Shown in pieces: positions 1,059 through 62,394 of a stretch of 64,000 nt of DNA. The DNA is from Nonlabens sp. Ci31. Lineage in GTDB: Bacteria; Bacteroidota; Bacteroidia; Flavobacteriales; Flavobacteriaceae. The position numbers and the translations under genes are program-made. Under the pieces are notes generated by a model. It ran no database searches. It saw only the letters and a program-made list of their open reading frames with translations, and was not told where the DNA came from. Where the stretch lies: assembly GCF_012974865.1 (NCBI RefSeq), contig NZ_CP043633.1:2601501-2665500 (forward strand), written 5' to 3'. The first letter of the stretch is position 1. Each line of letters opens with the position of its first letter.

Positions 1059-1088
1059 AAGGTTCCGCTTTCGCGAAAGCGGAACCTT
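1059..1088. repeat. 30-bp perfect palindrome containing the dispersed GCTTTCGCGAAAGC core
   Basis: The core at 1067-1080 is extended on both sides to a perfect inverted repeat (arms AAGGTTCCGCTTTCG). It lies 6 bp downstream of the stop codon of the 1095-4817 gene, so it could act as a transcription terminator hairpin, but no clear T tract follows on the minus strand. It is one of eleven copies in the window. Confidence 0.85.
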
Positions 1089-1094
1089 TAAAGT

Positions 1095-4000
1095 TTATTT
1101 CTTAATAAATTTTAGAGCTTTCCACTGATGATCAATTTTTATAGCTATGATATAAATACCGTTTTTAAGATCTTGAGTATTAATACCTGTTGCAGTATTG
1201 TAATTGTTATGAGACATTTTTCTTCCTTTGAGGTCATAAATGATATATGCAAGACCGTCAATTTGTTCTCCAGAGATATATAACTTATCGATAGTAGGAT
1301 TAGGATATAGTTTTAATAAGTCTTCTTGTACCGCCACCTCATTACTAGAGAGCGTTGTACAACCGCCGCAATTAGCTTGTTCATAGTAGAAAAATTTACG
1401 CTCACAAGGATTGTAACTTATAGCAATAGGGCACCCGTTACTGTAATAGTCTACGATTCTGGTGATCACCCAGTCGCATCTTAAATCGTTTATATTAGGA
1501 GGTGTATCATTAAAACCAAACTGGTTTGATATGCCGGTAATGTTCATGTTAGGAAAGATACCAGTGGTTAGACCTCCGTTATTTTCATGAAAATACATTC
1601 TGCCGCCAGAAAAATTAATGTTCAGCGGGTCACTTATTAGTAAGTCTATATCACCGTCACAGTCCACATCGTAAAACTCAGGTGTGGGAAAACTACCTCC
1701 GTCTTCTGGGATAAACGGACTCGTTATACCTACTCCAGAGGATATATAATCTTGTGGAGCTACTAAATCGAGGTAAGGATAAGAAGCAGCCCCATTATTT
1801 TCATAGTAAGCAGTACCGGGAAACAGCATGCTTTGAGATGAAATTACAATATCCGGTAGTCCATCACTATTCACATCTCCTACGGCCATAAGAGCTGGGC
1901 CAAAGGTATAATCTAGCGTTCCCACTAACAAACCAAGACCAAAACTAAAGTTCCCTGCACAGTCGTTAAAATAAACTCTAGTCTCTGCATTAACACCATA
2001 TACGACTATATCTAAACAGCCATTGTTATTCCAATCGTAGAGTCTATAAGAAAGGGCATTTGTAATATTTAAGTTTACTGGTGGAAGGTTAAAGACGGGA
2101 GTGGTGTTTGTCCCGGCGGTATTTTCTAACCAGTATAAAACGGGAAAACCGTTACTGCTATTAATTTTAGTATACAAAATGTCAGTATCACCGTCATTAT
2201 CTACGTCGCCGTATTCTTTATCTTTAGTGTCGAAACGGTCAGTATCTAGTTCCTGTGCAATGGCGAGGGGAAATAAAACACCTTCGGCGACTTGATATGG
2301 TAAGAAGTTCAATGGTTCACACTGGTCTAATGGTGAGTCTATTAGAAGTGCTACTCGATTGCTTGGGATAATAATACCAGTGCCAGCGTCGCAATTTATT
2401 AAATAGGCACTATTAACGGCCATAGAACCAGTATTTATGTTAATAGAAGGTAAACTAGCACTAATGTTTATTTCAAAGCTACCACCAGGTGCAAGTATGG
2501 TATTGTTTTCATAAAAAATAGTTTGCGTATTTAAGTTGGGGTTATTACTTCCCGCAGTAACTACATTGCAATTAAAATTTGCAGGGTTCACACCGTTTGA
2601 GGGTGAAGTATTCAAATAAGATGTTGCGAAATCAGGTGCGTTTGAGCTTAAATTTGATAAAGAGAACGTACTATTTCTACTAAGAACTGTAGGATAAAAT
2701 ACATCGCCCATGGCGGGTAATTCGTCGATTATTTGAAATTGTGTTAGCGTCTTGTTGCCTAGGTTTTCAATTGTCATTTTATAATAAACATCTAGGTTGC
2801 AAGTAGGGTCATATATTAGCGAGCCTTGCTGGAAACTGTTATTATCATTGGATATTTCTTTCTTGAAGTTTATGACAACTGTTTCAATGACATTAACTTT
2901 AGCAGCATCTGTAATTACGGATAAACTATTTGCTGTGTTCACTATTGTAGCGATGTTATCTATGTTTCCGGGCGCAGTTAACGCTTTTACCTTTACTTTA
3001 ACGAGCGCACAAAAGAATTGATTTGCTGTATTTATACATTCAAATATGGTGGAAAAACTAGAACAATTTTCAGCTAGGTTTATTGCATCCCATGTAAGCG
3101 TTTGACCGTTTTGATTGAAGGTTGTTCCCGTGGGCATATTGCTATTATCTACAGAAATAAATTCATACTTAGGATCTAAGATATCAGTTAACGAACCAGT
3201 AAAATCTAGGCTGCCGTTATTTTGAATACAAATTTCAAACTCTAGCTCGTCAGTAGGAACTACATTAGTGATTGAGCTTACAAACGCATTATTGGTATTG
3301 GCTTTACGTACTTTTTTTAAAGCACAAAGTTTAACTTCCTCTGCAGCTACGGTAAATGAGGCACAACTGTTATTGTTAAAAGGCATATTTGCGGCAGGAG
3401 CCTCTAAAACTACTTGAGCTTGAAAGTTTGCACAATTAGTTACTACATCACCTACGTTCAGTACAGGGTCCAATGTAAAAAGTATTGTTATATTTAACTG
3501 GTCTCCAGGGAATAGTACTGTGTTGGTTTGAGCAGTAAGTTGTAAACTATTTCCTGATGCCATGAAAGGGAAAACACCAATATAGCCGTTACTCAAATTC
3601 ATAGGTATAGCAGTATTCCCATTTAAGATTAAATCAAACAGCATATTGCTGGATGCGCTATTTATGGTACCGTTAATAAATATAGACTGAGGCAGTATAT
3701 CATTAGGTAAATTATCTATAATGTCTAGCAAAGCCACTGGTCTGTTGTCTGTATTGGAGTAAAAGATAGTATAAGAACCCTGACAACCAGCGACAGGATT
3801 TGCCATTAAAACGTTTTTAAATATAGAGCTGCCCAGCGATGGTGGCGGTAAATTATCTACTGCAATTACTGTTGCCGTATCGGTCGCAATAGCTGTCGTA
3901 GGTGTGCTACCTAAAGGTGTTCCATTTAACTCAACTATATTAGGTATTACTTGTCCGTTTGTAAATGCTGGACAATTACCATAATCTACCTCTACAATAA

Positions 4001-4817
4001 ACTCTACATTTTCAAACGGATTAGCGCCTATTAAGTTGTTATTGAATGTTATAACGTTAGTAGCGGGATTAAATGTTCCAGGGCCACTTATTAAGATAGC
4101 TGTCGCGCAGGGTGGCGCAACTATCTCCGATATTGACGGGTTCACTAGATTCAACATTCCAAAGGTAATTCCTTGGTAAGCAGGATCTTTTTCTACGGTA
4201 ATTTTAAATCGAGCTTTTCCTGCGGTTGTAGGAATAAAGAAATTGCCACTTTGATCAGTAACCGCAGGAAATAGGGGTGTCTTTGAAATCTCACCCCATG
4301 GATTAACGGCAGCTGCGGTGCTGGTAAGTCCGGTACTAGTCGCAAATGTTTCTGTTCCACTGGATGCTGTATAGACTGCACTGATGTTGTTGGTGACATT
4401 AAAACCATCAGCAGTTATACCGGCACAAAATGTGACAGTAATAGTAAAGGAACCCCGTTGAATATTATTTGGTATATTGAATACTACAGTAGGTAGGGCG
4501 CTCGTATCAATAAGACCAGCAATCGGGCTAGAAATTGGGTTTCCATTAAAATCTATAAAAGTATTATCGGCAATAATATCACTGGCACTATAACATAATC
4601 CAGCTGGCAAAACATCGGTAATGGTTAGTGTATTTGCCTGATTTAAATTTTGAAAATCTATCTTGTACGCAAGTGGCTCACCTGTAGGAATACTTGTTCT
4701 CTGTGGAGTAGATTTTTGAATGGTAGCTTCACCAGTAAGGCTACTAGCGCTTATGGTTTGTGATTGTAGGTGCCAGGTGCTCAGTACAAAAAGGAATAAT
4801 AGTGCCGTTTTTTTCAT
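1095..4817 (-). CDS. Large secreted surface protein: DUF11-like repeats, FG-GAP/VCBS repeats, T9SS sorting domain
   Basis: About 1240 residues. I choose the ATG at 4817 because it puts a signal peptide (MKKTALLFLFVLSTWHLQSQ) at the start; an ATG ten codons upstream would add unrelated residues. Residues about 25-850 are Thr/Asn-rich DUF11-like modules (phrases such as ADTLPAG and IENLGNKTLT). Residues about 870-1110 hold calcium-binding-like FG-GAP/VCBS repeats: DVDNDGDTDIL, DWNNNGCLDIV, GDVNSDGLPDIV, DVDCDGDIDLL. The last 70 residues (LYPNPTIDKLYISG ... ALKFIKK) are a type IX secretion C-terminal sorting domain. It should be exported across the outer membrane and anchored on the surface or released. 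It lies 57 bp downstream of a lipoprotein gene on the same strand and upstream of its own paralogue, so the three may be co-transcribed. The ligand is unknown. Confidence 0.88.
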   Translation of the reverse strand: MKKTALLFLFVLSTWHLQSQTISASSLTGEATIQKSTPQRTSIPTGEPLAYKIDFQNLNQANTLTITDVLPAGLCYSASDIIADNTFIDFNGNPISSPIAGLIDTSALPTVVFNIPNNIQRGSFTITVTFCAGITADGFNVTNNISAVYTASSGTETFATSTGLTSTAAAVNPWGEISKTPLFPAVTDQSGNFFIPTTAGKARFKITVEKDPAYQGITFGMLNLVNPSISEIVAPPCATAILISGPGTFNPATNVITFNNNLIGANPFENVEFIVEVDYGNCPAFTNGQVIPNIVELNGTPLGSTPTTAIATDTATVIAVDNLPPPSLGSSIFKNVLMANPVAGCQGSYTIFYSNTDNRPVALLDIIDNLPNDILPQSIFINGTINSASSNMLFDLILNGNTAIPMNLSNGYIGVFPFMASGNSLQLTAQTNTVLFPGDQLNITILFTLDPVLNVGDVVTNCANFQAQVVLEAPAANMPFNNNSCASFTVAAEEVKLCALKKVRKANTNNAFVSSITNVVPTDELEFEICIQNNGSLDFTGSLTDILDPKYEFISVDNSNMPTGTTFNQNGQTLTWDAINLAENCSSFSTIFECINTANQFFCALVKVKVKALTAPGNIDNIATIVNTANSLSVITDAAKVNVIETVVINFKKEISNDNNSFQQGSLIYDPTCNLDVYYKMTIENLGNKTLTQFQIIDELPAMGDVFYPTVLSRNSTFSLSNLSSNAPDFATSYLNTSPSNGVNPANFNCNVVTAGSNNPNLNTQTIFYENNTILAPGGSFEINISASLPSININTGSMAVNSAYLINCDAGTGIIIPSNRVALLIDSPLDQCEPLNFLPYQVAEGVLFPLAIAQELDTDRFDTKDKEYGDVDNDGDTDILYTKINSSNGFPVLYWLENTAGTNTTPVFNLPPVNLNITNALSYRLYDWNNNGCLDIVVYGVNAETRVYFNDCAGNFSFGLGLLVGTLDYTFGPALMAVGDVNSDGLPDIVISSQSMLFPGTAYYENNGAASYPYLDLVAPQDYISSGVGITSPFIPEDGGSFPTPEFYDVDCDGDIDLLISDPLNINFSGGRMYFHENNGGLTTGIFPNMNITGISNQFGFNDTPPNINDLRCDWVITRIVDYYSNGCPIAISYNPCERKFFYYEQANCGGCTTLSSNEVAVQEDLLKLYPNPTIDKLYISGEQIDGLAYIIYDLKGRKMSHNNYNTATGINTQDLKNGIYIIAIKIDHQWKALKFIKK

Positions 4818-4874
4818 AAGGTCAAGTATTAGAATTTTTATGATCAATTTTTTATAGAATTGGTACTGTACCCG

Positions 4875-6363: not shown

Positions 6364-6372
6364 GATAGACCT

Positions 6373-6380: not shown

Positions 6381-6396
6381 CCACAAAACTGATCTT

Positions 6397-9489: not shown

Positions 9490-11034
9490 TTGAAAATCTT
9501 AAGCGCAAAACAACTGGCAGAGGCCGATCAGTCTACGATTAGCAAACAACAAATCTCTAGTATCAAATTGATGGAACGGGCAGCAACTCTTGTTTTTGAA
9601 AGAATTCATCAGCGATTAAATGCTGCCCCAGTTCCTGTAAAGATATTTTGTGGAATAGGTAATAATGGGGGCGATGGTCTTGCTATAGCTCGGCACATGA
9701 TGGAGCATGGTTATCAAGTGACTGTTTATGTGACCAATTGTAGTAAAAAAAGATCGCCTGATTTTCTAGTAAATTATAATCGTATGAAAGAGGTGACCAA
9801 AGACTGGCCCATTTTATTGAGTTGTAAAGAAGATTTTCCAGAAATAACACCTCAAGACATTGTTATAGATGCCATTTTTGGAACAGGAATCAATAGAGCA
9901 TTAGAGGGATGGATGGCCGATTTGATCCACTATATAAGTGAATCTAAAGCTTTTAAAGTCTCCATCGATATGCCTAGTGGCTTGTACGCAAATACAGCTC
10001 ATCAACCAGAAGATGCTATTCTAAAAGCAGATCATACGTTTACATTTCAAACACCTAAATTGTCGTTTTTTCTTTCTGAAACAGCCAGTTACGTAGGTAC
10101 TTTTGAAATAATCGATATAGGGCTAGACCCTGAATATTTAATAGGAATTGCTCCACTGGCAGAATTAATTGATAGAGAAGCCGCTCAAATTAGGTACAAG
10201 GCTCGGGAGAAATTTACCTATAAAGGAGACTATGGTCATGTACTTACTTTTGCAGGTAGTAAAGGTAAGATGGGTGCTGCGGTTCTTTGCGCGGGTGCTG
10301 CCATTAACTCTGGAGCAGGAAAGGTGACTGCTTACTTACCAGAAGGGGGGAATAATATTTTGCAGACTTCCTTGCCAGAAGTGATGACTTTGTTGGGCGA
10401 TGGAAATGACTTTATTACAGATTTTAATCATCATCTGAAGGGGACTGTTTTGTGCATTGGACCTGGAATAGGAACAGAGAAGGATACAGTTTCCGCTTTC
10501 GCGAAAGCGATAAAACAACAAACAACACCCGCAGTAATAGATGCAGACGGAATAGTTATCCTAGCCCAACACCCAGAACTATTAACAACATTGCCCAAAG
10601 ATTCTATCCTAACTCCTCATGATGGTGAATTAAAACAGCTTATCGGGGGATGGAATAATAGCTATGAGCGATTGGAAAAAGTGCAAGAATTTTCTAAGAA
10701 ATACCATTTAATTCTTGTCTTGAAAGGTGCGCATACCCTTATCATATCTGGGTCAAGTATGTTTATCAATGATACGGGTAATCCAGGAATGGCCACTGCT
10801 GGCAGTGGAGATGTATTAGCGGGTATTATGGCTTCTTTTCTAGCGCAGGGATATGATCCACTTACAGCAGCTACTTTCTCTGTTTATATACATGGAGCAA
10901 GTGGCGATCTTGCAGCACAGACCTATGCTCATGAAGGTTTAAAGGCATCTGTGATATCTAATTTTATTGGCCCCAGTATACTTCAGCTATTTAGAAACCC
11001 ACCGCAAGAGCAAGATCAAGAGCAAGAACAATAA
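9490..11034 (+). CDS. nnr: Bifunctional NAD(P)H-hydrate epimerase / ADP-dependent NAD(P)H-hydrate dehydratase
   Basis: 514 residues. It repairs damaged NAD(P)H: the N-terminal YjeF_N half epimerises R/S-NAD(P)HX and the C-terminal carbohydrate-kinase-like half dehydrates S-NAD(P)HX back to NAD(P)H using ADP. N-domain: MERAA near residue 28, GIGNNGGDGLAIARHM near 55, AIFGTGINR near 114, SIDMPSGLYA near 158. C-domain: FAGSKGKMGAA near 256, CIGPGIGTE near 320, DADGIVIL near 347, and the GNPGMATAGSGDVLAGI nucleotide site near 433. The start codon is TTG at 9490. A copy of the dispersed palindrome encodes SAFAKA at residues 335-340, between the two conserved blocks. The C-terminus is a Gln/Glu-rich tail (QEQDQEQEQ). 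Confidence 0.95.
   Translation: MKILSAKQLAEADQSTISKQQISSIKLMERAATLVFERIHQRLNAAPVPVKIFCGIGNNGGDGLAIARHMMEHGYQVTVYVTNCSKKRSPDFLVNYNRMKEVTKDWPILLSCKEDFPEITPQDIVIDAIFGTGINRALEGWMADLIHYISESKAFKVSIDMPSGLYANTAHQPEDAILKADHTFTFQTPKLSFFLSETASYVGTFEIIDIGLDPEYLIGIAPLAELIDREAAQIRYKAREKFTYKGDYGHVLTFAGSKGKMGAAVLCAGAAINSGAGKVTAYLPEGGNNILQTSLPEVMTLLGDGNDFITDFNHHLKGTVLCIGPGIGTEKDTVSAFAKAIKQQTTPAVIDADGIVILAQHPELLTTLPKDSILTPHDGELKQLIGGWNNSYERLEKVQEFSKKYHLILVLKGAHTLIISGSSMFINDTGNPGMATAGSGDVLAGIMASFLAQGYDPLTAATFSVYIHGASGDLAAQTYAHEGLKASVISNFIGPSILQLFRNPPQEQDQEQEQ
10494..10509. repeat. Dispersed palindrome inside nnr
   Basis: CGCTTTCGCGAAAGCG, an exact copy. It is read in frame as Ala-Phe-Ala-Lys-Ala within the dehydratase domain. 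Confidence 0.9.
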
Positions 11035-23210: not shown

Positions 23211-23238
23211 TTGTTAGGCTTTCGCGAAAGCCTAACAA
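23211..23238. repeat. 28-bp perfect palindrome between clpC and gyrA
   Basis: The GCTTTCGCGAAAGC core (23218-23231) is extended symmetrically by TTGTTAG/CTAACAA arms. It lies in the divergent promoter region of clpC and gyrA. Confidence 0.9.
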
Positions 23239-27155: not shown

Positions 27156-27170
27156 CGCTTTCGCGAAAGC
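27156..27170. repeat. Dispersed palindrome downstream of the TPR gene
   Basis: CGCTTTCGCGAAAGC, an exact copy of the core, lies 28 bp after the TPR stop codon and just upstream of the terminator hairpin. Confidence 0.9.
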
Positions 27171-31853: not shown

Positions 31854-31867
31854 GCTTTTGCGAAAGC
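31854..31867. repeat. One-base variant of the dispersed palindrome upstream of pdxH
   Basis: GCTTTTGCGAAAGC differs from the core at one position (C to T in the centre). Intergenic. Confidence 0.75.
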
Positions 31868-32602: not shown

Positions 32603-33087
32603 TGAAGCGATTGATAGTTATAAGACATGGTAAATCAACTTGGGAGCTTCAGGTGAGAGATCACGATCGCGTACTGACACAACGCGGTATTGACGATGCA
32701 CATCTCATAGGAGAGGCATTAAAAGACCTGAATGTAGATCCAGATCAAATCTGGACCAGTACTGCGGCTAGAGCCCTGCAAACAGCAACTTTAGTTAGTG
32801 AGTATTTCAATTACAGTCTGTCAAAACTCGAGCTTAAAAGAGAGTTGTATACTTTTAGCAGTGATGAATTGATACATGTCATCTCTAATGCAGAGGATGC
32901 AATAGAAACCCTCGTTATCTTTAGTCATAACAATGGAATAACAGATCTGGTAAATGATTTGGGAAGCACCAGATTTGACAATGTTCCTACTACAGGAGTT
33001 GTAGCTATAGATTTTGATTCCAACTCTTGGTCTTGTCTAGGTAAAGGCATCACTAAATTTCATTTATTCCCTAAATTGTTAAAATGA
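32602..33087 (+). CDS. sixA: SixA-like histidine phosphatase
   Basis: 161 residues of the histidine-phosphatase superfamily, SixA branch. The catalytic RHG is Arg8-His9-Gly10 in LIVIRHGKST; ARALQTATLVSEYF near residue 60 and the second His in IFSHNNGITDLV near 113 complete the site. SixA-type enzymes remove phosphate from phosphohistidine. It overlaps pdxH by one base and ppk1 by 4 bases. PPK1 works through a phospho-histidine, so a functional link is attractive, but it is inference. Confidence 0.88.
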   Translation: MKRLIVIRHGKSTWELQVRDHDRVLTQRGIDDAHLIGEALKDLNVDPDQIWTSTAARALQTATLVSEYFNYSLSKLELKRELYTFSSDELIHVISNAEDAIETLVIFSHNNGITDLVNDLGSTRFDNVPTTGVVAIDFDSNSWSCLGKGITKFHLFPKLLK

Positions 33088-35132
33088 GTAAATATTATAA
33101 TAGAGAATTGAGCTGGTTGCGATTTAACGCAAGAGTATTACAAGAAGCAAGCGATAAAAATGTACCGCTTATAGAGCGCTTGAGATTTTTGGGAATTTTT
33201 TCAAATAATCTAGATGAATTTTTTAAAGTTCGCTATGCGACCATACAACGCATTCAAAGAGCAGGAAAGAACGCCACAAAATCTTTAGGCGGAATCAGTG
33301 CAGAAGACCTTTTACAGGAAATTAATAAAATGGTTATCGTTGATCAAGCTCATAGTTTTAGCGTACTTGCAGAGCTGGAACAGGAGCTTAAGAAAGAAAA
33401 GATCAGCCTTGTAGATGAGACGGAAGTGCTTCCCGATCATGAAGACTTTATAAGAAACTACTTTAATGAAAAAATAAGTCCAGCAATAGGTACCATAATG
33501 ATTAACGATGAGGTAGATTTCCCTCATTTGAGAGATGGATACGGTTACCTCGCTGTGCGTATGCTCATGACAGATAAAAGTATCAGATACGCCCTTATAG
33601 AGAAGCCTAAGTATTTGAATCGATTTGTAGTTTTACCTCAAATAGAAGGTGATGAAAGGCAATTCATCATACTCATTGATGACCTTATCAGGCATCGCAT
33701 GCACTATATCTTCAATATTTTTGATTATAAAGAAATTGAAGCACACATGATCAAGGTGACATTAGATGCAGAGCTAGATATGGAATTGGACCTTAAGAAA
33801 AGTTTATTAGAAAAAATACGTCGTAGTGTTCACGATCGTAAAGACGGAGATCCGGTGCGATTTGTTTACGACCGCCATATTCATGAAGATACTTTGCATC
33901 TTATCATGAAGAAATTACAAATCGATAACCACGATAGTATTATTCCGGGAGGAAGGTATCACAACAGAAGGGATTACTTGAAGTTTCCTAGTCTGGGAAG
34001 AACAGATTTACTATATGAAAAACTGCCGGCTTTGCCGATAAAAGAAGTAAAAATTAAAGGTTCTCTTTTAGAAAGAATAGCTAGAAAGGACATCCTTCAA
34101 TACACACCTTACCACACATTTGCTAATACCATTAAGTTTTTAAGAGAAGCAGCTCTTGATCCCCAAGTAAGGACCATTAAAATAACTATTTATAGGCTGG
34201 CTGAAGTATCGCAAATTGCTGGATCATTAATTAATGCTGTAAAAAACGGAAAAAAGGTTACTGTTTCCATCGAGCTACAAGCTAGGTTTGATGAGCAAGC
34301 CAATATCAATTATGCAGAGTTAATGCAGGAAGAAGGTGTTGATATGATATTTGGTGTTCCAGGACTCAAAGTGCATTGTAAAGCTTGTTGTATCACTCGT
34401 GAAGAAGATGGTAAAATTGTTAGATATGGCTTTATTTCTACTGGTAATTTTAACGAATCCACTGCTGGTATTTACACCGACTACACCCTGTTTACTGCAA
34501 ATCGGAAGATATTGAAAGAAGTAGAGCGTGTCTTTGAATTTTTTGAGGTCAATTACCGTCAGCATCGATATAAACATTTACTCGTTTCTCCTAATTATCT
34601 CAGAAATGGAATTGAGCGATTGGTTCGTCGTGAAATCGCTTTCGCGAAAGCGGGAAAATTTGCAAAAATGCGCATGAAAGTAAATTCTTTTTCAGATTTT
34701 AGAATGATTGATTTATTTTACGAGGCGTCTAATGCAGGTGTTCAAATAGAATTGATTGTGAGAGGAATTTGCTGTCTTGTTCCTGGTGTGAAAGGAATGA
34801 GTGAGAATATAAAGGTGATCAGTATTATAGACCGATTTTTAGAACATCCTCGTGTGTATCGATTTTATAATCAAGGACAAAACGACCTCTATATATCTAG
34901 TGCAGATTTTATGGGACGAAATCTAGACAGTCGTGTGGAAATAGCTTGTCCTATATACGATGAAGATATCAAGGCCGAAATTATAGCCACCATGGATATA
35001 TGCTGGAGTGATAATGTGAAAGCAAGAGAAATATGTGGAGACCAACTTAATAATTATGTAGTTAATGATGAGCCACCTGTAAGATCGCAATATGCCACAT
35101 ATGAGTTTTATAAAAATCAAATTACAAGGTAA
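33084..35132 (+). CDS. ppk1: Polyphosphate kinase 1
   Basis: 682 residues, full length. PPK1 moves the gamma-phosphate of ATP to a growing polyphosphate chain via a phosphohistidine, at the inner face of the membrane. The N-domain starts YYNRELSWLRFNARVLQEA; the catalytic histidine lies in GVPGLKVHCKACC (near residue 431); RQHRYKHLLVSPNYLR, FISTGNFNEST and the late SSADFMGRNLDSRVEIA motif are all family marks. A palindrome copy encodes EIAFAKAGK at about 516-524. The same segment can be aligned to E. coli PPK without a gap (from memory), so the copy is not an insertion. It overlaps the neighbouring genes by 4 and 1 bases. Confidence 0.97.
   Translation: MSKYYNRELSWLRFNARVLQEASDKNVPLIERLRFLGIFSNNLDEFFKVRYATIQRIQRAGKNATKSLGGISAEDLLQEINKMVIVDQAHSFSVLAELEQELKKEKISLVDETEVLPDHEDFIRNYFNEKISPAIGTIMINDEVDFPHLRDGYGYLAVRMLMTDKSIRYALIEKPKYLNRFVVLPQIEGDERQFIILIDDLIRHRMHYIFNIFDYKEIEAHMIKVTLDAELDMELDLKKSLLEKIRRSVHDRKDGDPVRFVYDRHIHEDTLHLIMKKLQIDNHDSIIPGGRYHNRRDYLKFPSLGRTDLLYEKLPALPIKEVKIKGSLLERIARKDILQYTPYHTFANTIKFLREAALDPQVRTIKITIYRLAEVSQIAGSLINAVKNGKKVTVSIELQARFDEQANINYAELMQEEGVDMIFGVPGLKVHCKACCITREEDGKIVRYGFISTGNFNESTAGIYTDYTLFTANRKILKEVERVFEFFEVNYRQHRYKHLLVSPNYLRNGIERLVRREIAFAKAGKFAKMRMKVNSFSDFRMIDLFYEASNAGVQIELIVRGICCLVPGVKGMSENIKVISIIDRFLEHPRVYRFYNQGQNDLYISSADFMGRNLDSRVEIACPIYDEDIKAEIIATMDICWSDNVKAREICGDQLNNYVVNDEPPVRSQYATYEFYKNQITR
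34637..34652. repeat. Dispersed palindrome inside ppk1
   Basis: CGCTTTCGCGAAAGCG, an exact copy, read in frame as Ala-Phe-Ala-Lys-Ala in ppk1. Confidence 0.9.
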
Positions 35133-41579: not shown

Positions 41580-42134
41580 TTACTCTTCCTCACTACTAGG
41601 ACCTTCAAAAAAGCTGAAAACCGTACCGCCATAACGGCGCTCGTTATCAAAGTGTTCGTGAGTAGCTAGTGAGGTGTGTTTAGAATGTTCTATAATAAGA
41701 ATACCATCTTCGGCAAGAAGCTCGTTAGCATACACATAGTTTGGGATTTTCAGAAACTCCTCTTCTTCCAGTGCATAAGGGGGGTCTGCAAAGATGATGT
41801 CGTACTTTCCTTTGTGTTTTTCTAAGAATTTGAATGCGTCTGCCTTTACGGTATCTATAGGGAAATCTAGTAATTCGGCAGTTTTTTTTATAAAAGCAAT
41901 ACAAGGCTGGTGTTGATCCACAGCTATAACGCTTCCAGCACCACGACTACAAAATTCATAAGACATATTGCCACTACCGGCAAAAAGTTCCAGCATTTTG
42001 ATATTATGGATATGGATCTTATGACGCAAAATATTGAACAATGCCTCTTTAGACATATCTGTAGTAGGTCGTACAGGTAAGTTTTTGGGAGCCGATATAC
42101 GGCGGCCTTTGTGTTTTCCAGATATTATACGCAT
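41580..42134 (-). CDS. rsmD: 16S rRNA (guanine966-N2)-methyltransferase
   Basis: 184 residues. RsmD methylates G966 of 16S rRNA with S-adenosylmethionine. MRIISGKHKGRRISAPKNLPVRPTTDMSKEALFNIL is a textbook start; the SAM loop LELFAGSGNMSYE lies near residue 50 and the catalytic FADPPYAL near 118. Its start overlaps the end of the DUF3822 gene by 10 bp, an arrangement found across this phylum, so the two are co-expressed. Confidence 0.95.
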   Translation of the reverse strand: MRIISGKHKGRRISAPKNLPVRPTTDMSKEALFNILRHKIHIHNIKMLELFAGSGNMSYEFCSRGAGSVIAVDQHQPCIAFIKKTAELLDFPIDTVKADAFKFLEKHKGKYDIIFADPPYALEEEEFLKIPNYVYANELLAEDGILIIEHSKHTSLATHEHFDNERRYGGTVFSFFEGPSSEEE

Positions 42135-42898
42135 AAGATTTGTTCTAAATAGTTAGGGTAATCTTCTATATAACTTACATAACGTACGTAGGTATATAAG
42201 AGATCAAATAATTTTTCTTCTTGCTGCTCAGTACATAAGATCATTTTCATGGTCTCTGGATCGAGATCATTGTGATGCGTGGTAAACATCGTGTAATATA
42301 AAATATCTTCTATAGCGTCATGCGGGAAAAGATTTTGTGCCACGAGCTTTCCGTTTTTAAAAATAGTCAAGTAAAAATGACTTTTCTTAATGTCTAAGTA
42401 TACTTGGGGTTGCAACGCAGGGACTTCCTTATTCCTCAACTCTAGGATGCGAGAGCTGTAATGAAAATATTCATAGCTGCCATAGCGGTCAAAGAAGTAG
42501 TTATTGATATTAGCATACGCAATGTACACCGTATGTATGTCTAGATCTCCCAGATCTTTGTCCACACTCAAGACATCTGTTTCTAATATTCTCGCATTGT
42601 ATTTGAGATAATCTACTGCGTGGTCTTGCTTGTATAAAAGTGCTGGGACGCTGGTAAATATGTTATGGTGGTAGAATAGGGTAGCTTTCGCGAAAGCGTA
42701 ATTTAAAAAATCCTCTTCCTTAAAACAATCCTCTATGGACTGCAAGATTTCTATAGGGTTTGCTCGGTGCTTAAATTCCCTATGCAACGAATTTAAAATT
42801 CCTGTTGCGTCATAGGTATAAAAAGAAAGTCCATCCTGATGAATCAGGACGGACAGTTTCTTTATGGAGTCGTCAGGACTATTTTTCGTTGAGTGCAT
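42125..42898 (-). CDS. DUF3822 family protein
   Basis: About 257 residues from the ATG at 42898 (MHSTKNSPDDSIKKLSVLI). The family has an ASKHA-like (actin-fold) layout; its role is unknown, though it is regularly next to rsmD and coaD. Phrases such as LSFYTYDATGIL and YFHYSSRILELR fit. A palindrome copy encodes YAFAKAT at about residues 67-73, between helices. The start overlaps the preceding gene by 20 bp; a longer start at 42937 exists but is less likely. Confidence 0.85.
   Translation of the reverse strand: MHSTKNSPDDSIKKLSVLIHQDGLSFYTYDATGILNSLHREFKHRANPIEILQSIEDCFKEEDFLNYAFAKATLFYHHNIFTSVPALLYKQDHAVDYLKYNARILETDVLSVDKDLGDLDIHTVYIAYANINNYFFDRYGSYEYFHYSSRILELRNKEVPALQPQVYLDIKKSHFYLTIFKNGKLVAQNLFPHDAIEDILYYTMFTTHHNDLDPETMKMILCTEQQEEKLFDLLYTYVRYVSYIEDYPNYLEQILCV
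42684..42697. repeat. Dispersed palindrome inside the DUF3822 gene
   Basis: GCTTTCGCGAAAGC, exact, read in frame (minus strand) as Ala-Phe-Ala-Lys-Ala. Confidence 0.9.
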
Positions 42899-43631
42899 AC
42901 TGTCTTGGCCAGTTTCCACTAGTAGTAATTTCCTCAAGGCTACCTACAAAGATGGTAGGGCCATCAATACCTTCTACACTTTTCATTTCTAATTCTTGTT
43001 GTACTAACCTTTCTGGTTGGTCAAAGAGAATATCTTTCTTATTTGCCACCGCACGGAAAACCGGTACTCTGTTTTCTTTATCGATGACAACATCGGTCTT
43101 TAACTCGATAGAACCAGGAGCTCCTTTGATAGTATACTTTAATAGTTGAGAGACGTCTACTTTACTAAATAGGGAATCTTTAACTGAAGTAAATCCTAAA
43201 GTATCTGTAAGCGTTATCTCTTTTTTGTATCCATTAGGATCATCAGCACGAAGTCTAAATTTGATGTTGCGCTCTTCATCAATTATCGTGCTATCACGCT
43301 TTTGAGTTAAAGCAAACTGAGCGGTGTCTATAAAACGAGATAATTTATCAATATCATCACTATATCCCCCTGTGATGGACTTGTGGGCATTTTGTGCTTC
43401 TCTTAGGAGTACCAATTGGGCTACAACTTCTTTGTAACGCTCTTCTTTTGCTGCTTCAAACTTTACGGGTTCCTCTATAGACTTGTAAAGCTTGTATCCA
43501 AAAAAGCCACTTATACCTAGTAACACAACAATTATAATGGGGTGTAATTTTTTAGGGATCTTATTAATGAATATCGCTAATAAAACAAGGACTATAAGAC
43601 CTAAAACAACTGCTATAATTAAATTGACCAT
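42879..43631 (-). CDS. Membrane-anchored protein of unknown function
   Basis: 250 residues. Two N-terminal hydrophobic segments (LIIAVVLGLIVLVLLAIF at 4-21 and LHPIIIVVLLGISGFFGY at 32-49) are followed by a coiled-coil-like EEPVKFEAAKEERYKEVVAQLVLLREAQNAH stretch and a soluble, beta-rich remainder. The helix followed by a QNAHKSITGGY turn recalls pseudopilin-like proteins, but this is weak. The operon has rsmD and DUF3822 downstream. No family recognised with certainty. Confidence 0.75.
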   Translation of the reverse strand: MVNLIIAVVLGLIVLVLLAIFINKIPKKLHPIIIVVLLGISGFFGYKLYKSIEEPVKFEAAKEERYKEVVAQLVLLREAQNAHKSITGGYSDDIDKLSRFIDTAQFALTQKRDSTIIDEERNIKFRLRADDPNGYKKEITLTDTLGFTSVKDSLFSKVDVSQLLKYTIKGAPGSIELKTDVVIDKENRVPVFRAVANKKDILFDQPERLVQQELEMKSVEGIDGPTIFVGSLEEITTSGNWPRQYALNEK

Positions 43632-45781: not shown

Positions 45782-45795
45782 GCTTTTGCGAAAGC
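45782..45795. repeat. One-base variant of the dispersed palindrome downstream of the DUF4126 gene
   Basis: GCTTTTGCGAAAGC, the same C-to-T variant as at 31854. It lies between the DUF4126 gene and the small membrane protein family. Confidence 0.75.
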
Positions 45796-49254: not shown

Positions 49255-49262
49255 TATCTTTG
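49255..49262 (+). promoter_or_regulatory. -7 box TATCTTTG for the lytic transglycosylase gene
   Basis: It overlaps the in-frame TTG at 49260, so that TTG cannot be the true start; the ATG at 49281 lies 18 bp downstream of the box. Confidence 0.5.
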
Positions 49263-49280
49263 AACAAATTTGTTAAACTC

Positions 49281-50222
49281 ATGAAAAAAATACTTTTAGG
49301 GGCTGGAATAGCCATCGTTTTTATAGTAATCATTAGTGCTATCCAACAAGGAGGAGCTGCTTCTGCAATTGCTACCTTGAATACATCGACTGATGTAAAA
49401 GTTGAAAAACGTGTACAAAATTATAATGTTTACAGTATCAACTTACCTAAAAGTCTTGATTTTGCTGGTGAAGCAGTACCGCTTAACCAACCAGATATAA
49501 GAGAACGAGTTGATCGTGAGTTTCTAGTAAATACCTATTGGCAATCTAATGGGATATTACTTATTAAAAGAGCTCAGAAATATTTTCCAATAATTGAGCC
49601 TATTCTTGCAGAAAACGGTGTGCCAGACGATTTTAAATATCTAGCGGTTATAGAAAGTGGTTTACAAAATGTTACTTCTCCAGCTGGAGCCAGAGGTTTT
49701 TGGCAAATTATGACAGGAACAGGTAGGGAATTAGGATTGGAAGTAAATGATAATGTTGACGAGCGCTACCATATAGAAATGGCGACCAAAGCGGCATGCG
49801 ATTATTTAAAAGAAAGCAAATCAAAATTTGGAACCTGGACTCTTGCTGGAGCTGCCTATAATGCCGGTAACGGAGGAATCAATAAACAGTTAGAAGCGCA
49901 AGGAGTTGAAAGTTATTACGATCTTCTTTTAGGAGAAGAAACTGGTCGTTATGTTTTTAGAATTCTAGCTATCAAAGAGATTCTTAAAAGCCCGAAAAAC
50001 TTTGGCTTTAACGTAAATCCCAGTCATGGGTATGAAGTTATTCCTACTAAAAATGTTTTGGTAGATTATGAGGTGGATGATCTTTCCGCTTTCGCGAAAG
50101 CGAATAACATCAATTATAAAATTCTTAAAATTCACAACCCTTGGCTAAGAGAGCCTAGGTTAGATAATAAATCAAAAAAGGAATATGCCATCGCTATTCC
50201 TGAAAAGGGATACTACAATTAA
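49281..50222 (+). CDS. Lytic transglycosylase (MltD-like, SLT fold)
   Basis: 313 residues from ATG 49281 (MKKILLGAGIAIVFIVIISAI: signal/anchor). The SLT domain spans about 95-235: LAVIESGLQNVTSPAGARGFWQIMTGTGRELGL (catalytic Glu in ESG), and AAYNAGNGGIN. The enzyme cleaves the glycan backbone of peptidoglycan non-hydrolytically in the periplasm. A C-terminal LysM-like segment follows (YEVDDLSAFAKANNINYKIL), within which a palindrome copy encodes SAFAKA. Cardiolipin synthase follows 2 bp later, so they share an operon. Confidence 0.92.
   Translation: MKKILLGAGIAIVFIVIISAIQQGGAASAIATLNTSTDVKVEKRVQNYNVYSINLPKSLDFAGEAVPLNQPDIRERVDREFLVNTYWQSNGILLIKRAQKYFPIIEPILAENGVPDDFKYLAVIESGLQNVTSPAGARGFWQIMTGTGRELGLEVNDNVDERYHIEMATKAACDYLKESKSKFGTWTLAGAAYNAGNGGINKQLEAQGVESYYDLLLGEETGRYVFRILAIKEILKSPKNFGFNVNPSHGYEVIPTKNVLVDYEVDDLSAFAKANNINYKILKIHNPWLREPRLDNKSKKEYAIAIPEKGYYN
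50087..50102. repeat. Dispersed palindrome inside the lytic transglycosylase gene
   Basis: CGCTTTCGCGAAAGCG, exact, read in frame as Ala-Phe-Ala-Lys-Ala in a LysM-like segment. Confidence 0.9.
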
Positions 50223-54134: not shown

Positions 54135-54689
54135 ATGAATCTAGAAAAAATCATAAAGCAATGTAAAAAAGGAGACATAAAGGCTCAAAAAGAGCTTTAT
54201 GACACCTATAAAGACGGGCTTTTTGTTTTGTGTTTAAAGTATAGTAGAAATAGAGAAGAGGCTGAAGACAACTTGCAGGATTCTTTTATGGTGATCTTTA
54301 CTTCCATTGAAAAATATAAGGGTAAAGGTAGTTTTGAAGGATGGATGAAGCGTATAGTGATCAACAAAGCCATCACTTTATTTAAAAGAGAATCTAATTT
54401 TAATGTTTTGATTAATGAAGATATTACAAAAGACATCGTCATTGAAAAATCTTTAATAAGCGCTATTCCTTTACAAGAAATTTTAAGAGCAGTGCAAGAA
54501 TTACCCACGCGATATAAGATGGTGTTCAACCTTTATGAAATGGATAACTACACTCATAAAGAAGTAGCTCAAATGTTGGACATTACTGAGGGCACATCAA
54601 AATCAAACCTGTATAGAGCAAAAGTTATCCTTAAAGAAAGCTTACAAAAATGGAATACTACTTCAAAAAATAGATCGTATGGAAACTAA
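54135..54689 (+). CDS. ECF-type RNA polymerase sigma factor
   Basis: 184 residues from ATG 54135 (MNLEKIIKQCKKGD). Region 2 includes KAQKELYDTYKDGLFVLCLKY, NREEAEDNLQDSFMVIFTSI and the -10-recognition helix FEGWMKRIVINKAITLFK; region 4 includes LPTRYKMVFNLYEMDNYTHKEVAQMLDITEGTSKSNLYRAKVIL. It directs RNA polymerase to a specific regulon. It overlaps the next gene by 11 bp, and that gene encodes its likely anti-sigma factor, so the two are translationally coupled. Confidence 0.94.
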   Translation: MNLEKIIKQCKKGDIKAQKELYDTYKDGLFVLCLKYSRNREEAEDNLQDSFMVIFTSIEKYKGKGSFEGWMKRIVINKAITLFKRESNFNVLINEDITKDIVIEKSLISAIPLQEILRAVQELPTRYKMVFNLYEMDNYTHKEVAQMLDITEGTSKSNLYRAKVILKESLQKWNTTSKNRSYGN

Positions 54690-56034
54690 GAAAGATATAG
54701 GATCGGCGATAAAGAATCAGCTAGAATCGTTACATGCAACTCCTAGCGACAAGGTCTGGAAACAATTAGAATCTGATTTGCAAAAGAAGAAGAGGGGAAG
54801 AGCGCTGCCATTTTGGCTTTGGTACGCAGGAATAGGTGTTTTAGCAATCGGAATTTTGATAGGAGGTTCTTTTCATTATTTATCAAGTACTCCTGATAGT
54901 TTTCCAGTAGAAAATAAAATTTCTTCTTCAAATAAAAACTCCAGTAGTGAGGTTCAAGACGAACAAATAGAATTGCAAAAAAACGCTTCTTTACTTAATA
55001 ATGATAGCAATACTAATGATGCTTTATTAAATGATGAGCATCAAGCAAAAGGAGTTCTTAACAGTACGGATTCAAAACAAGATAAAGAGGATAGGAACTC
55101 CATAGCAAAAGAATCAAATCTCATAGCAAAGGAACCTTTTGAGCTAGCTTCAAACTTTAACCCGCAAAAAAATAAAAATAATAGTGCTGACGATTTTCCA
55201 TTAGAATTTGAAAAGGAAGAACAGAAATCTGTCATCAATTCACATGCAGTTGAAAAAATGCTGATTGATAAGGATACGCTATCATCAAAAATTACCGACC
55301 TAGATAAAAGCCCTAAGCAACTTAAAGAGGAAAATCTCACTTTATCAAATGACAGTACAAGTCTACCACTTAAGAGGAACCCTTGGAGTGCCAGCGTTTC
55401 TGGAATAGTTAATTTTTACGACAATTTTAAAAATGGATCTTTAATTGATAGAAATTTTGATGGCAATCAAGTCGATAGAAAGGTACACTTGAATTATGGG
55501 CTTGCCTTACACTATAATCTCAATACAGAATGGACTTTAAGAATAGGAGCAAACCTAATTAAATATGACCAAACTACCCGAAGAGCAGACTCCACAGCGA
55601 TTGATTTTGAAAATCTTGAATATGTTCGATATACCACAGAAGTTTCAGAAATAAATAGTTTTGTAAATAACTCTGAAACGATAGACATCACTCAAAATTT
55701 CACCTACCTAGAAATACCTTTACAAATGAGGTATTCCTTTTATGGAGAAGAAGTAGATTTTGGTGTAATAGGTGGTTTACAATCGAGAATACTTTTAACA
55801 GATAATATTATTTTGGATTCTGACACAAGACAGCTCAAAATAGGCGAGTCGAGTACGATTTACGATATAGGAGTTTCGGCACATTTTTCTCTTGCATCTA
55901 GAATAAAGCTGTATAAGAAGTTTTATTTCAATATAGAACCTTCCATTTACTACCATTTAAAACCTTATGAGACGGATAGAATTAACTCCCCTTCAGAATT
56001 TAGATTTACGAGCAGTTTAGAATATAAGTTTTAA
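54679..56034 (+). CDS. Likely dual-membrane-spanning anti-sigma factor with an outer-membrane beta-barrel
   Basis: 451 residues in three parts. Residues 1-43 are cytoplasmic (GSAIKNQLESLHATPSDKVWKQLESDL), resembling the sigma-binding end of Bacteroidota anti-sigma factors. One inner-membrane segment follows (about 44-68, LPFWLWYAGIGVLAIGILIG). Residues 70-230 are a long, low-complexity, charged and Ser/Asn-rich linker able to cross the periplasm. Residues 236-451 are an outer-membrane-barrel-like domain (WSASVSGIVNFYDNF, LNYGLALHYNL, YLEIPLQMRYSF, ending FRFTSSLEYKF, an aromatic C-terminal strand). This layout matches the dual-membrane-spanning anti-sigma factors described in Bacteroides thetaiotaomicron (Dma family). 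It is coupled to the preceding sigma gene by an 11-bp overlap. Confidence 0.85.
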   Translation: METKKDIGSAIKNQLESLHATPSDKVWKQLESDLQKKKRGRALPFWLWYAGIGVLAIGILIGGSFHYLSSTPDSFPVENKISSSNKNSSSEVQDEQIELQKNASLLNNDSNTNDALLNDEHQAKGVLNSTDSKQDKEDRNSIAKESNLIAKEPFELASNFNPQKNKNNSADDFPLEFEKEEQKSVINSHAVEKMLIDKDTLSSKITDLDKSPKQLKEENLTLSNDSTSLPLKRNPWSASVSGIVNFYDNFKNGSLIDRNFDGNQVDRKVHLNYGLALHYNLNTEWTLRIGANLIKYDQTTRRADSTAIDFENLEYVRYTTEVSEINSFVNNSETIDITQNFTYLEIPLQMRYSFYGEEVDFGVIGGLQSRILLTDNIILDSDTRQLKIGESSTIYDIGVSAHFSLASRIKLYKKFYFNIEPSIYYHLKPYETDRINSPSEFRFTSSLEYKF

Positions 56035-56073: not shown

Positions 56074-56091
56074 CCGCTTTCGCGAAAGCGG
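56074..56091. repeat. Dispersed palindrome downstream of the anti-sigma gene
   Basis: CCGCTTTCGCGAAAGCGG, exact and extended by one pair, 40 bp after the stop codon. It could end the sigma operon, but no T tract follows. Confidence 0.9.
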
Positions 56092-57389: not shown

Positions 57390-57410
57390 TCAATGACATC
57401 TTATTTTAAA

Positions 57411-57440: not shown

Positions 57441-57460
57441 AATGGAAACCATTTTCTATT

Positions 57461-58033: not shown

Positions 58034-58036
58034 CCT

Positions 58037-59767: not shown

Positions 59768-59867
59768 AAACCGAGCTTATAATATAAAACAATACGGCAA
59801 AAACAATATTTGCTAGAATAACCAGTGCATACACAAGCTTCCATTTTTTAGAGTTTTCCTTGGCCAT
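59754..59867 (-). CDS. 37-residue single-membrane-segment peptide coupled to the symporter
   Basis: Short ORF: ATG 59867, MAKENSKKWKLVYALVILAN and then IVFAVLFYIISSVYGNS. A basic, charged N-terminus precedes one hydrophobic helix (about residues 11-32). It starts 20 bp inside the end of the PIG-L gene and ends 14 bp inside the start of the symporter, so all three are translationally linked. Small accessory subunits are known beside some SSS transporters (for example the DUF4212/MctS and YhdT types), which supports this being real; it is not homologous to those by eye. Confidence 0.7.
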   Translation of the reverse strand: MAKENSKKWKLVYALVILANIVFAVLFYIISSVYGNS

Positions 59868-62394
59868 CTTTGTTTTTAATTGGTTGATTTTCAACTCCTA
59901 TACTGATTATATTTGCCAGTAATTTATAAGCTCCTGAAACTCCAGCAGGTAATTCTCTAAAAAGGCTCAACCCTGTATAAACAATATGTCCCTTGCCATA
60001 TTCAGCAACGATCAGACTTCCTTTAGTCATTTGCTCATCCTTATCATTCATTCCTAAAATAGGAGTAAAAGCAGCATCCCATTTTTCTGGAAAATAAAGT
60101 CCGCGTTCCTGTACCCAACCTTCAAAATCTTTTGAGGTAATCGCATTAGGAGAGGACATGATCTTATGCTGAGGTTCTAATATGGTTACGGTAGCATTTT
60201 CATCAGTTACTCGCTTTCGCGAAAGCGTAATAGGTAAAGGTCCCAATGCATCTGTACTAATTCTACGACTTGTATTGTACTGCATCATCAAAGTACCTCC
60301 ATTTTTCACATAACTATCCAAACGATTTTGTAGTGCAGCCATAGCGTCTTCTGCTACATTATATGCTCTAATTCCTACTACTACGGCGTCGTATTTAGAA
60401 AGATCATCTGGCACTTCGCTTGGTTCAAATTTGAATACTTTACCACCTATAGCTTCAATCGCTTGAGCGACATCATCTCCAGCACCATTGATATATGCAA
60501 CAGTTTGAGCACGATTGATAAGACCAGGTTTTACTACTTGAGACTGGTTATCTCTAACCAACTGTTGATTAGGAATATGGTCGTAATCGATCTTAATCAC
60601 TTCCTGTTTAAAAGTCTGTGTACCTATCTTAACTAATCCAGAAATGATGCCTCTCGAAGCAGTTTTAGGTGGTTGTAATTTAAAGGTATAGGTTTTTTCC
60701 TCTCCTTTTTCTAAACCTTTAAAATTAAAATCTATAGGAGTAATGCTCCAGTCATCTGGATAACACAACTCTAAGCTGCCCTCAGGTAGTTTTTTATTAG
60801 CCTTAATGGTGACTTGAACAGGTTGTGTGGTATTTCCAGAGAATACGTATACTGGATTTTCTATGCTTACAGCAACTTCTGGAACGATATGAAATGGTTC
60901 ATTCACCTCTCCACGTACAGGGTCAGTGCGCTTGTGAATGATGGGAATTTCTCTGTATAATCGCGTTCCCTGTATTTCTATAAAGGTTCTAACTATAAAT
61001 TCAGGACCTGTTTCAGGTTTTCCAGTAAGACTTCTATTTTGAAATTGATACATTCCTAAAGTGCCTTTTTCTTTTAAGTAATAAGGAGTGCTCGCTTCGT
61101 AATATGGAGGAATTTTTAAGGTAGCTTGTATCGTTTTAGTATCGTTTTGATTTAGGCGAAGTTCCTTTTCTTCTATTTGAATCAGTTGGTTCGGTAGAAG
61201 ACTTACTTTAAAGTTTTCCTTGGACCTGTTCGTTAATTCTATACGTACCGTTAAAGACTCTCCAGCAGTTGCTGTAGATGTATTCACACTTGCTTCCAGA
61301 TAAATACCTGCCATATCAAGAACTATCTGATCGAGTTCATCTAGTTTGATTTTTTTCCAGTGTTGGTCTTTTAGTTGTTCCATTTGAGCTCGCATTTCTA
61401 ATAGTGAAGGAATGCTCGCCGTTGGATTCTTGAAATCGTAGTTGGCTATGATAGAGTTGAGTAAGGTCTGTATGCTACTGCCACCTTTTACACGAGTCCA
61501 AGTGGTGTTTATCCCAGAAAATAAATCAGACTTATCCGTAGGGAAAGAGCCTTTCAGATACTCTAGATATTCTGTTTGTGAACCTCTAGAACCAGAACTT
61601 CCAAAGCCTTGAGATTTGTGATTGCTTCTACTTAATGCAGCTATCTCGCTGTTAGATAATCCTTTGTATGGATAATAAGTTCCAGCATCTAGTTCTAGAA
61701 GATTGGTCTTATCGGCCTTTTCAAAAGCCTCTTCACTTCCATAAAACCACCAACTGGTATTAAAGAATATACGTTGTGTTTGCCAGGTGTCGAGTTCTTT
61801 TAACTGATTGGCATAAATAGTTTTATTTGCTGCAAAATCAAAAACTTTCATACTCAACATGGCGCTGCTGGTATGATGTCCGTGTGTTGATCCAGGAGTG
61901 CGATGGTCAAATCTATTAATAATTACATCTGGTTGAAACTCTCTGATAATACGTACCATATCTTCCATCACTTCCTGCTGGTTCCATATTTGTAACGTTT
62001 CATCAGGATGTTTGGAATAGCCAAAATCATTGGCACGTGTAAAAAATTGCTGCCCACCATCGGTATTTCTGGCTTCTAATAACTCTTGAGTTCTTATCAT
62101 TCCCAATTGTTCCCGCAACTGTGGCCCTATAAGGTTTTGACCACCATCACCACGAGTGAGTGATAGGTATCCGGTACGCGCCATTTTATCATTAGCAAGC
62201 CAAGAAATAAGCCGTGTATTTTCATCATCAGGATGCGCAGCCACGTAAAGTGCTGTTCCCAAAAAGCCCAATTTCTGGATTTGATGATAAATTTCGGCCG
62301 TATTAGGCTGTTTTTGAGCAAGCCTATTTTCTTGAGCAACAGCTGTTGACACAAGGAAAAGGGCCATTATAGAGGTAAAAAAACGATTCTTCAT
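59848..62394 (-). CDS. PIG-L family deacetylase fused to a ThuA/GATase-like domain
   Basis: 848 residues. A signal peptide (MKNRFFTSIMALFLVSTAVA) is followed by the LmbE/PIG-L domain (about 30-270): metal motif AHPDDE near 54, HGHH near 172 and RFDHRTPGS. These enzymes remove N-acetyl groups from GlcNAc-type sugars. The middle (about 360-620) is beta-rich, NPCBM/Ig-like. The C-terminus (about 640-840) is a ThuA-like glutamine-amidotransferase fold (VAYINGAGDDVAQAIEAIGGKVFKFEPS, VVGIRAYNVAEDAM, GGTLMMQYNTSRR, EYGKGHIVYTGLSLFREL). A palindrome copy lies within it, read as LSRKR. Periplasmic; in an operon with a symporter, suggesting handling of a deacetylated sugar. Confidence 0.9.
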   Translation of the reverse strand: MKNRFFTSIMALFLVSTAVAQENRLAQKQPNTAEIYHQIQKLGFLGTALYVAAHPDDENTRLISWLANDKMARTGYLSLTRGDGGQNLIGPQLREQLGMIRTQELLEARNTDGGQQFFTRANDFGYSKHPDETLQIWNQQEVMEDMVRIIREFQPDVIINRFDHRTPGSTHGHHTSSAMLSMKVFDFAANKTIYANQLKELDTWQTQRIFFNTSWWFYGSEEAFEKADKTNLLELDAGTYYPYKGLSNSEIAALSRSNHKSQGFGSSGSRGSQTEYLEYLKGSFPTDKSDLFSGINTTWTRVKGGSSIQTLLNSIIANYDFKNPTASIPSLLEMRAQMEQLKDQHWKKIKLDELDQIVLDMAGIYLEASVNTSTATAGESLTVRIELTNRSKENFKVSLLPNQLIQIEEKELRLNQNDTKTIQATLKIPPYYEASTPYYLKEKGTLGMYQFQNRSLTGKPETGPEFIVRTFIEIQGTRLYREIPIIHKRTDPVRGEVNEPFHIVPEVAVSIENPVYVFSGNTTQPVQVTIKANKKLPEGSLELCYPDDWSITPIDFNFKGLEKGEEKTYTFKLQPPKTASRGIISGLVKIGTQTFKQEVIKIDYDHIPNQQLVRDNQSQVVKPGLINRAQTVAYINGAGDDVAQAIEAIGGKVFKFEPSEVPDDLSKYDAVVVGIRAYNVAEDAMAALQNRLDSYVKNGGTLMMQYNTSRRISTDALGPLPITLSRKRVTDENATVTILEPQHKIMSSPNAITSKDFEGWVQERGLYFPEKWDAAFTPILGMNDKDEQMTKGSLIVAEYGKGHIVYTGLSLFRELPAGVSGAYKLLANIISIGVENQPIKNKDGQGKL
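60212..60227. repeat. Dispersed palindrome inside the PIG-L gene
   Basis: CGCTTTCGCGAAAGCG, exact. On the coding (minus) strand it is in a different frame from the other intragenic copies and encodes Leu-Ser-Arg-Lys-Arg. Confidence 0.9.

Follow-up and report, generated by a model that had tools for sequence, protein, structure and literature searches.

Why should a perfect 14-bp palindrome recur every few kilobases along a flavobacterial chromosome? The question is raised by a 64-kb stretch of Nonlabens sp. Ci31 (NZ_CP043633.1, 2,601,501–2,665,500; genome label G000), the whole of which was analysed and is called the window below. It contains nine exact copies of GCTTTCGCGAAAGC and two variants with one mismatch (GCTTTTGCGAAAGC, at 31854 and 45782), all at the coordinates given by a first-pass annotation. 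That these numbers lie far above chance, as had been proposed, was borne out by 100 dinucleotide shuffles, in which matches with up to two mismatches averaged 0.12 with a maximum of 2, against 11 in the window.

Our tentative answer is that GCTTTCGCGAAAGC represents an uptake-type own-DNA sequence kept by drive: a protein could read the site, the reading could occur during DNA uptake, and drive could keep the site in the genome. The motif, present in three marine flavobacterial genera and in part of their phages, may act as an orientation-free palindromic tag of own DNA that decides on the uptake or tolerance of DNA, via either pilus-less transformation or self-mark surveillance, a proposal made with equal reserve. 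Each site is kept, neighbouring sites are redundant, and sites go with shared genes and with resident phages, not with new islands; drive by uptake would join all of these observations. A chromosome-maintenance site is the main and close rival, which accounts for the symmetry and the phages as well, and a Chi-like signal comes third.

Abundance and Distribution among Genera

The genome of the host strain, a single contig of 3,740,082 bases, contains 487 exact copies of GCTTTCGCGAAAGC and 590 with at most one mismatch, whereas a reversed-pattern control gives 0 in both cases; with at most two mismatches, 645 copies are found against 20 for the control. The element is thus of genome scale, as the first-pass annotation had supposed: its counts depart from base composition, and its copies do not cluster in the window only. 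A single short core, strongly over-represented throughout the genome and with few near-matches past one mismatch, is also a trait of the uptake signal sequences and DNA uptake sequences (USS/DUS).

All 23 genomes of Nonlabens (288–857 copies each) and all 18 of Dokdonia (369–905 copies each) are rich in the motif, as is Croceiramulus getboli (G190, 408 copies). A survey of the family (397 genomes, 237 genera) returned three rich genera, with 487–664 copies in four genomes of the host genus, 857 in the second genus and 408 in the third; all other genera had 0–19 copies. In a survey of the class (395 genomes), no genome other than the host had more than 4. The 14-mer is absent from 80 named gyrA loci, none of them from Nonlabens. 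In a gyrA tree of 55 out of 91 rows, built after leaving out L109, L111 and L113, the Dokdonia genome G206 and Croceiramulus are sisters (100/95) and Nonlabens stands apart, the tree being weakly resolved. A single clade of motif-rich genomes was marginally rejected by the approximately unbiased (AU) test on 34 rows (p 0.035), and one or two origins of the motif are considered.

The density of sites in the host is low for Nonlabens (487 in 3.74 Mb), and the commonest variant there is a C-to-T change at position 6 of the folded dyad (6/18); from these two features, sites may be eroding in the host lineage. In some other genera (G144, G329, G317, G127, G042, G053, G273), forms with up to two mismatches mildly outnumber those of the reversed control, the counts being 86 versus 20 and 74 versus 10 for g144, 92 versus 16 and 48 versus 18 for g127, 69 versus 8 and 20 versus 6 for g42, and 38 versus 7 and 36 versus 9 for g53. 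This weak excess possibly represents a related dialect or decayed sites. A screen for dialects in the 80 named gyrA loci and 6 of 7 further loci gave no dispersed palindromic 12-mer (at least 3 copies) except this motif, which itself turned up in 4 loci of motif-poor genomes; no palindromic 12-mer exceeded 11 copies in the pooled 80 gyrA loci (1.66 Mb).

The 14-mer, which the first-pass annotation could not place among described elements, was likewise not found in the open-licence literature searched, most subscription papers being outside the search. Within that literature, nothing was found on a GCTTTCGCGAAAGC element, and the titles listed for TTTCGCGAAA combined with the word palindrome were unrelated. 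We know of no earlier uptake or self-mark sequence in Bacteroidota.

Spacing along the Chromosome

Detailed site samples were taken as genome stretches. In four contiguous stretches, gaps shorter than 1 kb numbered 0, 1, 0 and 2, against 6.0, 8.9, 10.2 and 25.1 in simulations that kept the same coding/non-coding split, and no gap was under 500 bp. Consecutive positions listed for three genomes gave 1, 4 and 5 such gaps against 10.8, 22.8 and 18.2, with a few site pairs 197–489 bp apart. Gap variation was below chance in G000 and D. donghaensis (G416), not in N. agnitus (G397); short gaps were depleted in all three. Sites avoid one another within about 1 kb, and the even spacing typical of USS/DUS is found here as well.

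Over 20 spaced stretches the counts were flat (variance/mean 0.71 in the host and 0.72 in Croceiramulus), and no marking of origin or terminus was seen in these counts. A site-free stretch of 34 kb exists. In Dokdonia the density drops as genome size rises (rho −0.70, p 0.008, n = 13). The long gaps examined hold mostly island-type genes. Ten proteins taken from long gaps of G000 and G397 include an SMC/AAA and helicase pair, an SbcC-type protein (its locus looks Wadjet-like), an RHS protein, an ABC transporter, a CheB/CheR kinase and a housekeeping NAPRTase, while three of the ten had no family at the cut-off used or a weak match. Giant RHS-type genes of similar size occur in two places of the long site-free stretches (L428, L431, L432, L433). 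Close site pairs were also considered as pointers to a regulator gene, a candidate that was dropped because the neighbouring genes are mixed.

Conservation, Gain and Loss of Sites

Conservation of sites across orthologous loci, proposed earlier as a check, was confirmed. Between the host and G406 (87.8% identity), 24 of 26 host sites are exact by alignment and one more is recovered by reading through a misplaced gap, i.e., 25 of 26, compared with 24% of control 14-mers. With the same gap reading, all 6 aligned sites are exact in G400 (78.4% identity; control 14-mers 5%). The aligned host sites are also exact in G242 (7 of 7; 77.6% identity) and in G394 (1 of 1).

Of the 19 Nonlabens orthologues of the polyphosphate kinase gene, 17 carry its site in exact form. 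The ten orthologues of Dokdonia and Croceiramulus align over these codons without an indel and none carries the site, so this site arose by substitution (29 of 30 genomes were used; G401, with the second paralogue only, was left out). Leeuwenhoekiella has a polyphosphate kinase that is similar to the Dokdonia and Croceiramulus ones.

In five motif-poor genomes, 10 of the 22 sites in the fetched loci sit in one outer-membrane efflux gene (Pfam OEP), which adjoins an AcrB-type pump gene in L034 at least. The copy of this gene in the motif-poor G215 is 88–94% identical in nucleotides to those of eight rich genomes. Of 27 sequences, 23 have the exact site at residue 329, with every rich genus and six poor genomes represented (27 of the 30 genomes with a match were used, the weak matches of G397, G416 and G419 being left out). 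Some copies in poor genomes, at least, therefore arrived with moved genes. Movement of the efflux gene has involved nine or more genera of the family (L031, L033, L034, L035, L036, L037; L398–L424).

Sites in Phages

A scan of viral contigs gave at least 120 stretches, chance matches included, from which 26 with host-like flanks were picked by eye. Ten proteins from six of the latter comprise six of portal, major head, tape-measure or terminase families, three of families of unknown function and one without a family; an integrase is present in one such stretch. Some of these phages bear the site inside virion genes; in L377, two sites lie in the terminase and portal ORFs. Where nucleotide identity is below 70%, one phage group keeps the exact site in each of its three comparisons, another group shows it with one mismatch, and it was lost between L319 and L350. 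At 90% identity, L328 has a single mismatch at one of the L310 sites.

No site at up to two mismatches is present in the 35.7 and 35.0 kb of two phages that were isolated on a Nonlabens host. Since the two are annotated almost in parallel, they amount to about one genome's worth of evidence; both have their own annotated ERF and YqaJ recombination proteins and no integrase among the listed features. A search of deposited phages with a portal protein returned only matches below 60% identity.

Anatomy of the Site

The core is nearly all-or-none, since 63 of the 67 occurrences of TTTCGCGAAA in a 464-kb sample of the host genome, window included, belong to the full 14-mer. When one-mismatch variants of nine genomes are pooled (n = 62), positions 1–7 of the folded dyad account for 20, 11, 4, 0, 14, 12 and 1 of them. 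Avoidance of positions 4 (0/62) and 7 (1/62) is as expected if near-sites are partly read.

The flank consensus is symmetric, with C at ±1 (86% in Nonlabens) and T at ±3 and ±4. Beyond ±4 the 5′ side is T/G-rich and C-poor, which is mirrored on the 3′ side; the signature reaches about 20 bp and fades by 30–40 bp. It is the same in Dokdonia, with A at ±2, weaker in Croceiramulus, and present also at the gap sites of Nonlabens and Dokdonia. The weaker extended consensus around a core is another trait of USS/DUS. In the flanks of Nonlabens and Dokdonia gap sites, outside open reading frames (ORFs), T and A recur with a 3-base period (position-shuffle P 0.001–0.011).

The two arms do not covary, and their pairing is not above that of shuffled arms in the three genera, with a deficit in several sets; long perfect palindromes are therefore largely a by-product of symmetric base preferences. 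A one-sided element was rejected, as a model with two arm classes was worse on held-out sites in four of five sets (it was slightly better in Nonlabens genes). With one symmetric model best in four of five sets and arms free of covariation, the site looks, from its sequence, like the target of a dimeric protein rather than an RNA stem. Intergenic sites make up 94 of 209 in Nonlabens, 54 of 98 in Dokdonia and 8 of 62 in Croceiramulus, simple ORF calls covering 87–92% of the sequence. Coding sites of Nonlabens prefer phase 0 (66 versus 21 and 28). The half palindrome d(GCGAAAGC) is presumably an unusually stable DNA mini-hairpin.

Relation to Uptake Sequences and a Possible Mechanism

Drive by biased uptake is the accepted kind of explanation for USS/DUS (PMC1939737, PMC7811141). 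According to the same sources, these sequences of Pasteurellaceae and Neisseriaceae resemble the motif in their hundreds of copies, in a sharp core with a weaker extended consensus, in their location both within genes and in gaps, and in their relatively even spacing; the AT tracts that USS carry beyond the core are a parallel to the extended consensus described above.

The palindrome could form the core of a dyad-symmetric recognition sequence, consisting of 14 nearly invariant base pairs and T/G-rich, C-poor flanks of about 20 bp. In Nonlabens, Dokdonia and Croceiramulus, a factor that is probably dimeric would read it as a mark of own DNA, and site-bearing DNA would be preferred in natural transformation. 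Alleles with the site would win by recombination, spread and be kept, i.e., molecular drive, the outcome being about one site per few kilobases in shared genes, gaps and resident phages. If one site per fragment is enough, neighbouring sites would be redundant, from which self-avoidance could result; unique islands would have no partner from which to gain sites. The mobile efflux gene, common to the three rich genera, keeps its site, and this is counted for the uptake reading.

Riemerella transforms, and four essential parts of its machinery have no known counterparts; flavobacterial transformation may not need machinery of the type IV pilus type (PMC8459023). R. columbina prefers its own DNA, and the k-mer table (up to 10 bp) in that report (PMC7965970) lists no such palindrome. 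The competence component DUF5689 was detected in all 26 genomes tested, motif-rich and motif-poor. In its tree (L437–L459), one Nonlabens copy, that of G403, groups with those of Croceiramulus, a single Dokdonia and two poor genomes (100/100); the sequences suggest that this putative competence gene was exchanged between genera.

A number of results weigh against uptake. USS/DUS are non-palindromic, unlike this perfect palindrome with symmetric flanks that shuns near neighbours and is found in phages, and strong USS have another USS within 100 bp in 23% of cases (PMC7811141). They are tied to uptake by a type IV pilus, whereas most of the motif bearers tested lack the pilus/secretion ATPase PF00437, which scored above the cut-off in 3 of 18 rich genomes and is thus not shared. 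No protein that binds the site was found. DUF5689 occurs in motif-poor genera too, and as a specificity receptor it was rejected, since the rich genomes do not group together in its tree (AU p 2e-48). Motif-poor genera also share the efflux gene, so exchange extends beyond the bearers. Nothing on competence of the three genera was found in the literature searched. In Nonlabens the drop of density with genome size is not significant (rho −0.18, p 0.45, n = 20). Exact sites between phages at 68–70% identity are no obvious product of host transformation. Finally, conservation is incomplete: one of two aligned host sites is exact in G010, and in the reverse direction the host is exact at 26 of 31 G406 sites and 6 of 10 G400 sites. 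Some sites were probably lost by the host, since identical altered forms are found in the two lists (GCTTTTGCGAAAGC twice).

Should the site serve in uptake or as a self-mark, it would show that sequences of this kind can be symmetric, independent of pili and carried by phages, and would offer an entry point to the flavobacterial transformation machinery, which is poorly understood. As an architectural site, it would anchor the whole chromosome far more densely and sharply than any such site we know of. Both readings are testable in the cultured marine strains N. agnitus and D. donghaensis, and the motif marks the traffic of genes and phages between genera.

Alternative Explanations

The sites could instead serve chromosome maintenance, a dimeric nucleoid or segregation protein binding every few kilobases where one site per stretch suffices; we regard this as possible, though doubtful. 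The dyad symmetry of core and flanks, the better fit of the symmetric model, the self-avoidance and the flat distribution along the chromosome all agree with it. Prophages would carry sites to avoid a hole in the lysogen's chromosome, consistent with conserved sites in phage contigs, one of these stretches having an integrase, and with none in the two Nonlabens-host phages that have no integrase listed. The parS, Noc and matS sites are 14–16-bp palindromes for dimeric chromosome proteins, but only a few exist, grouped near the origin or terminus, whereas the motif has hundreds of copies and is flat in 20 stretches of two genomes. Moreover, a 34-kb site-free stretch is tolerated, the density in Dokdonia falls as the genome grows, and every sampled genus but three does without the site. 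The strong keeping of every single site is hard to explain when hundreds would share one diffuse task. A signal for recombination or nuclease control, either Chi-like or a self-mark sparing DNA from a nuclease, and read from both sides, appears unlikely. RecA reads DNA in triplets and Chi sits in GT-rich islands; likewise, on either side G and T abound in the strand that leads into the site, gap sites show the 3-base periodicity of T and A, and about one site per 4–7 kb is Chi-like. Phages that need host repair would carry the site; it is conserved in phages, and the two site-free phages are annotated with ERF and YqaJ of their own. However, Chi is short and directional, a 14-bp palindrome with flanks of about 20 bp is odd for a translocating nuclease, and the periodicity may stem partly from neighbouring codons.

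The likeness to HIP1, to chromosome-organising motifs or to uptake motifs that the first-pass annotation had seen holds for the genome scale and the conserved positions; a link to a C5 methyltransferase and a marking of origin or terminus did not emerge. HIP1 of cyanobacteria is also a highly iterated palindrome of genes and gaps that is fixed in some lineages only (PMC4390886, whose text mentions neither flavobacteria nor Bacteroidetes nor TCGCGA). It is an octamer, GCGATCGC, of another sequence, whereas the motif has 14 bp and symmetric flanks. We consider it quite improbable that the palindrome is tied, in the manner of HIP1, to a solitary DNA methyltransferase acting on TCGCGA or CGCG. The commonest one-base variant, C-to-T at the first C of CGCG (10/62), is in line with this idea, but the variant positions are not those of deamination alone, and a C5 methylase had no match in 10 of 18 rich genomes and is thus not shared (N6 and N4 types were not searched). 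TCGCGA, thought to be confined to the sites, is so in the window (9/9), but in the 464-kb sample 28 of 95 occurrences lie outside TTTCGCGAAA, a number near the shuffled expectation (4.92 per 64 kb). An inserted mobile repeat of the REP/RAYT type or the hairpin of a transcription terminator is very improbable. Many of the intergenic sites lie within 30 bp of a stop codon, which would suit it. REP/RAYT elements, though, are extragenic and inserted as a unit, whereas about half of the sites are within genes (115 of 209 in ORFs in Nonlabens), and the site-free polyphosphate kinase orthologues align without an indel. An RNA hairpin or terminator was rejected, as the arms of the three genera show no excess pairing over shuffled ones (in Nonlabens genes it is below shuffled), and the 3′ side of the core is A-rich, not T-rich.

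Sites of the Window

The sites of the window (Table 1) occur in gaps as well as inside genes, as first noted. Extension to palindromes of 16–30 bp applies to seven of the nine exact copies (16 bp in four, 18, 28 and 30 bp in one each), while two stay at 14 bp. A shared extension was not upheld, CC...GG being found at two of the nine (1067 and 56076).

Table 1. Exact and one-mismatch sites in the 64-kb window of Nonlabens sp. Ci31.
Site	Position	Location	Palindrome	Same place in G242
Exact	1067..1080	Gap, 14 bp past stop codon of ORF 1095-4847 (−)	30 bp	
Exact	10495..10508	Within ORF 9490-11034 (+)		Exact
Exact	23218..23231	Gap between ClpC-like ORF (−) and gyrA (+)	28 bp	
Exact	27157..27170	Between convergent ORFs		Exact
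One mismatch, GCTTTTGCGAAAGC	31854..31867	Gap		
Exact	34638..34651	Within polyphosphate kinase 33084-35132 (+), codon phase 0		
Exact	42684..42697	Within ORF 42125-42937 (−)		Exact
One mismatch, GCTTTTGCGAAAGC	45782..45795	Gap		Exact
Exact	50088..50101	Within ORF 49260-50222 (+)		Exact
Exact	56076..56089	Gap, 41 bp past stop of ORF 54679-56034 (+)	18 bp	
Exact	60213..60226	Within ORF 59848-62394 (−; PIG-L domain)		Exact

The gap between the ClpC-like ORF and gyrA has an exact site also in G242, G010, G406 and G400, and the host site aligns to a site of G394.

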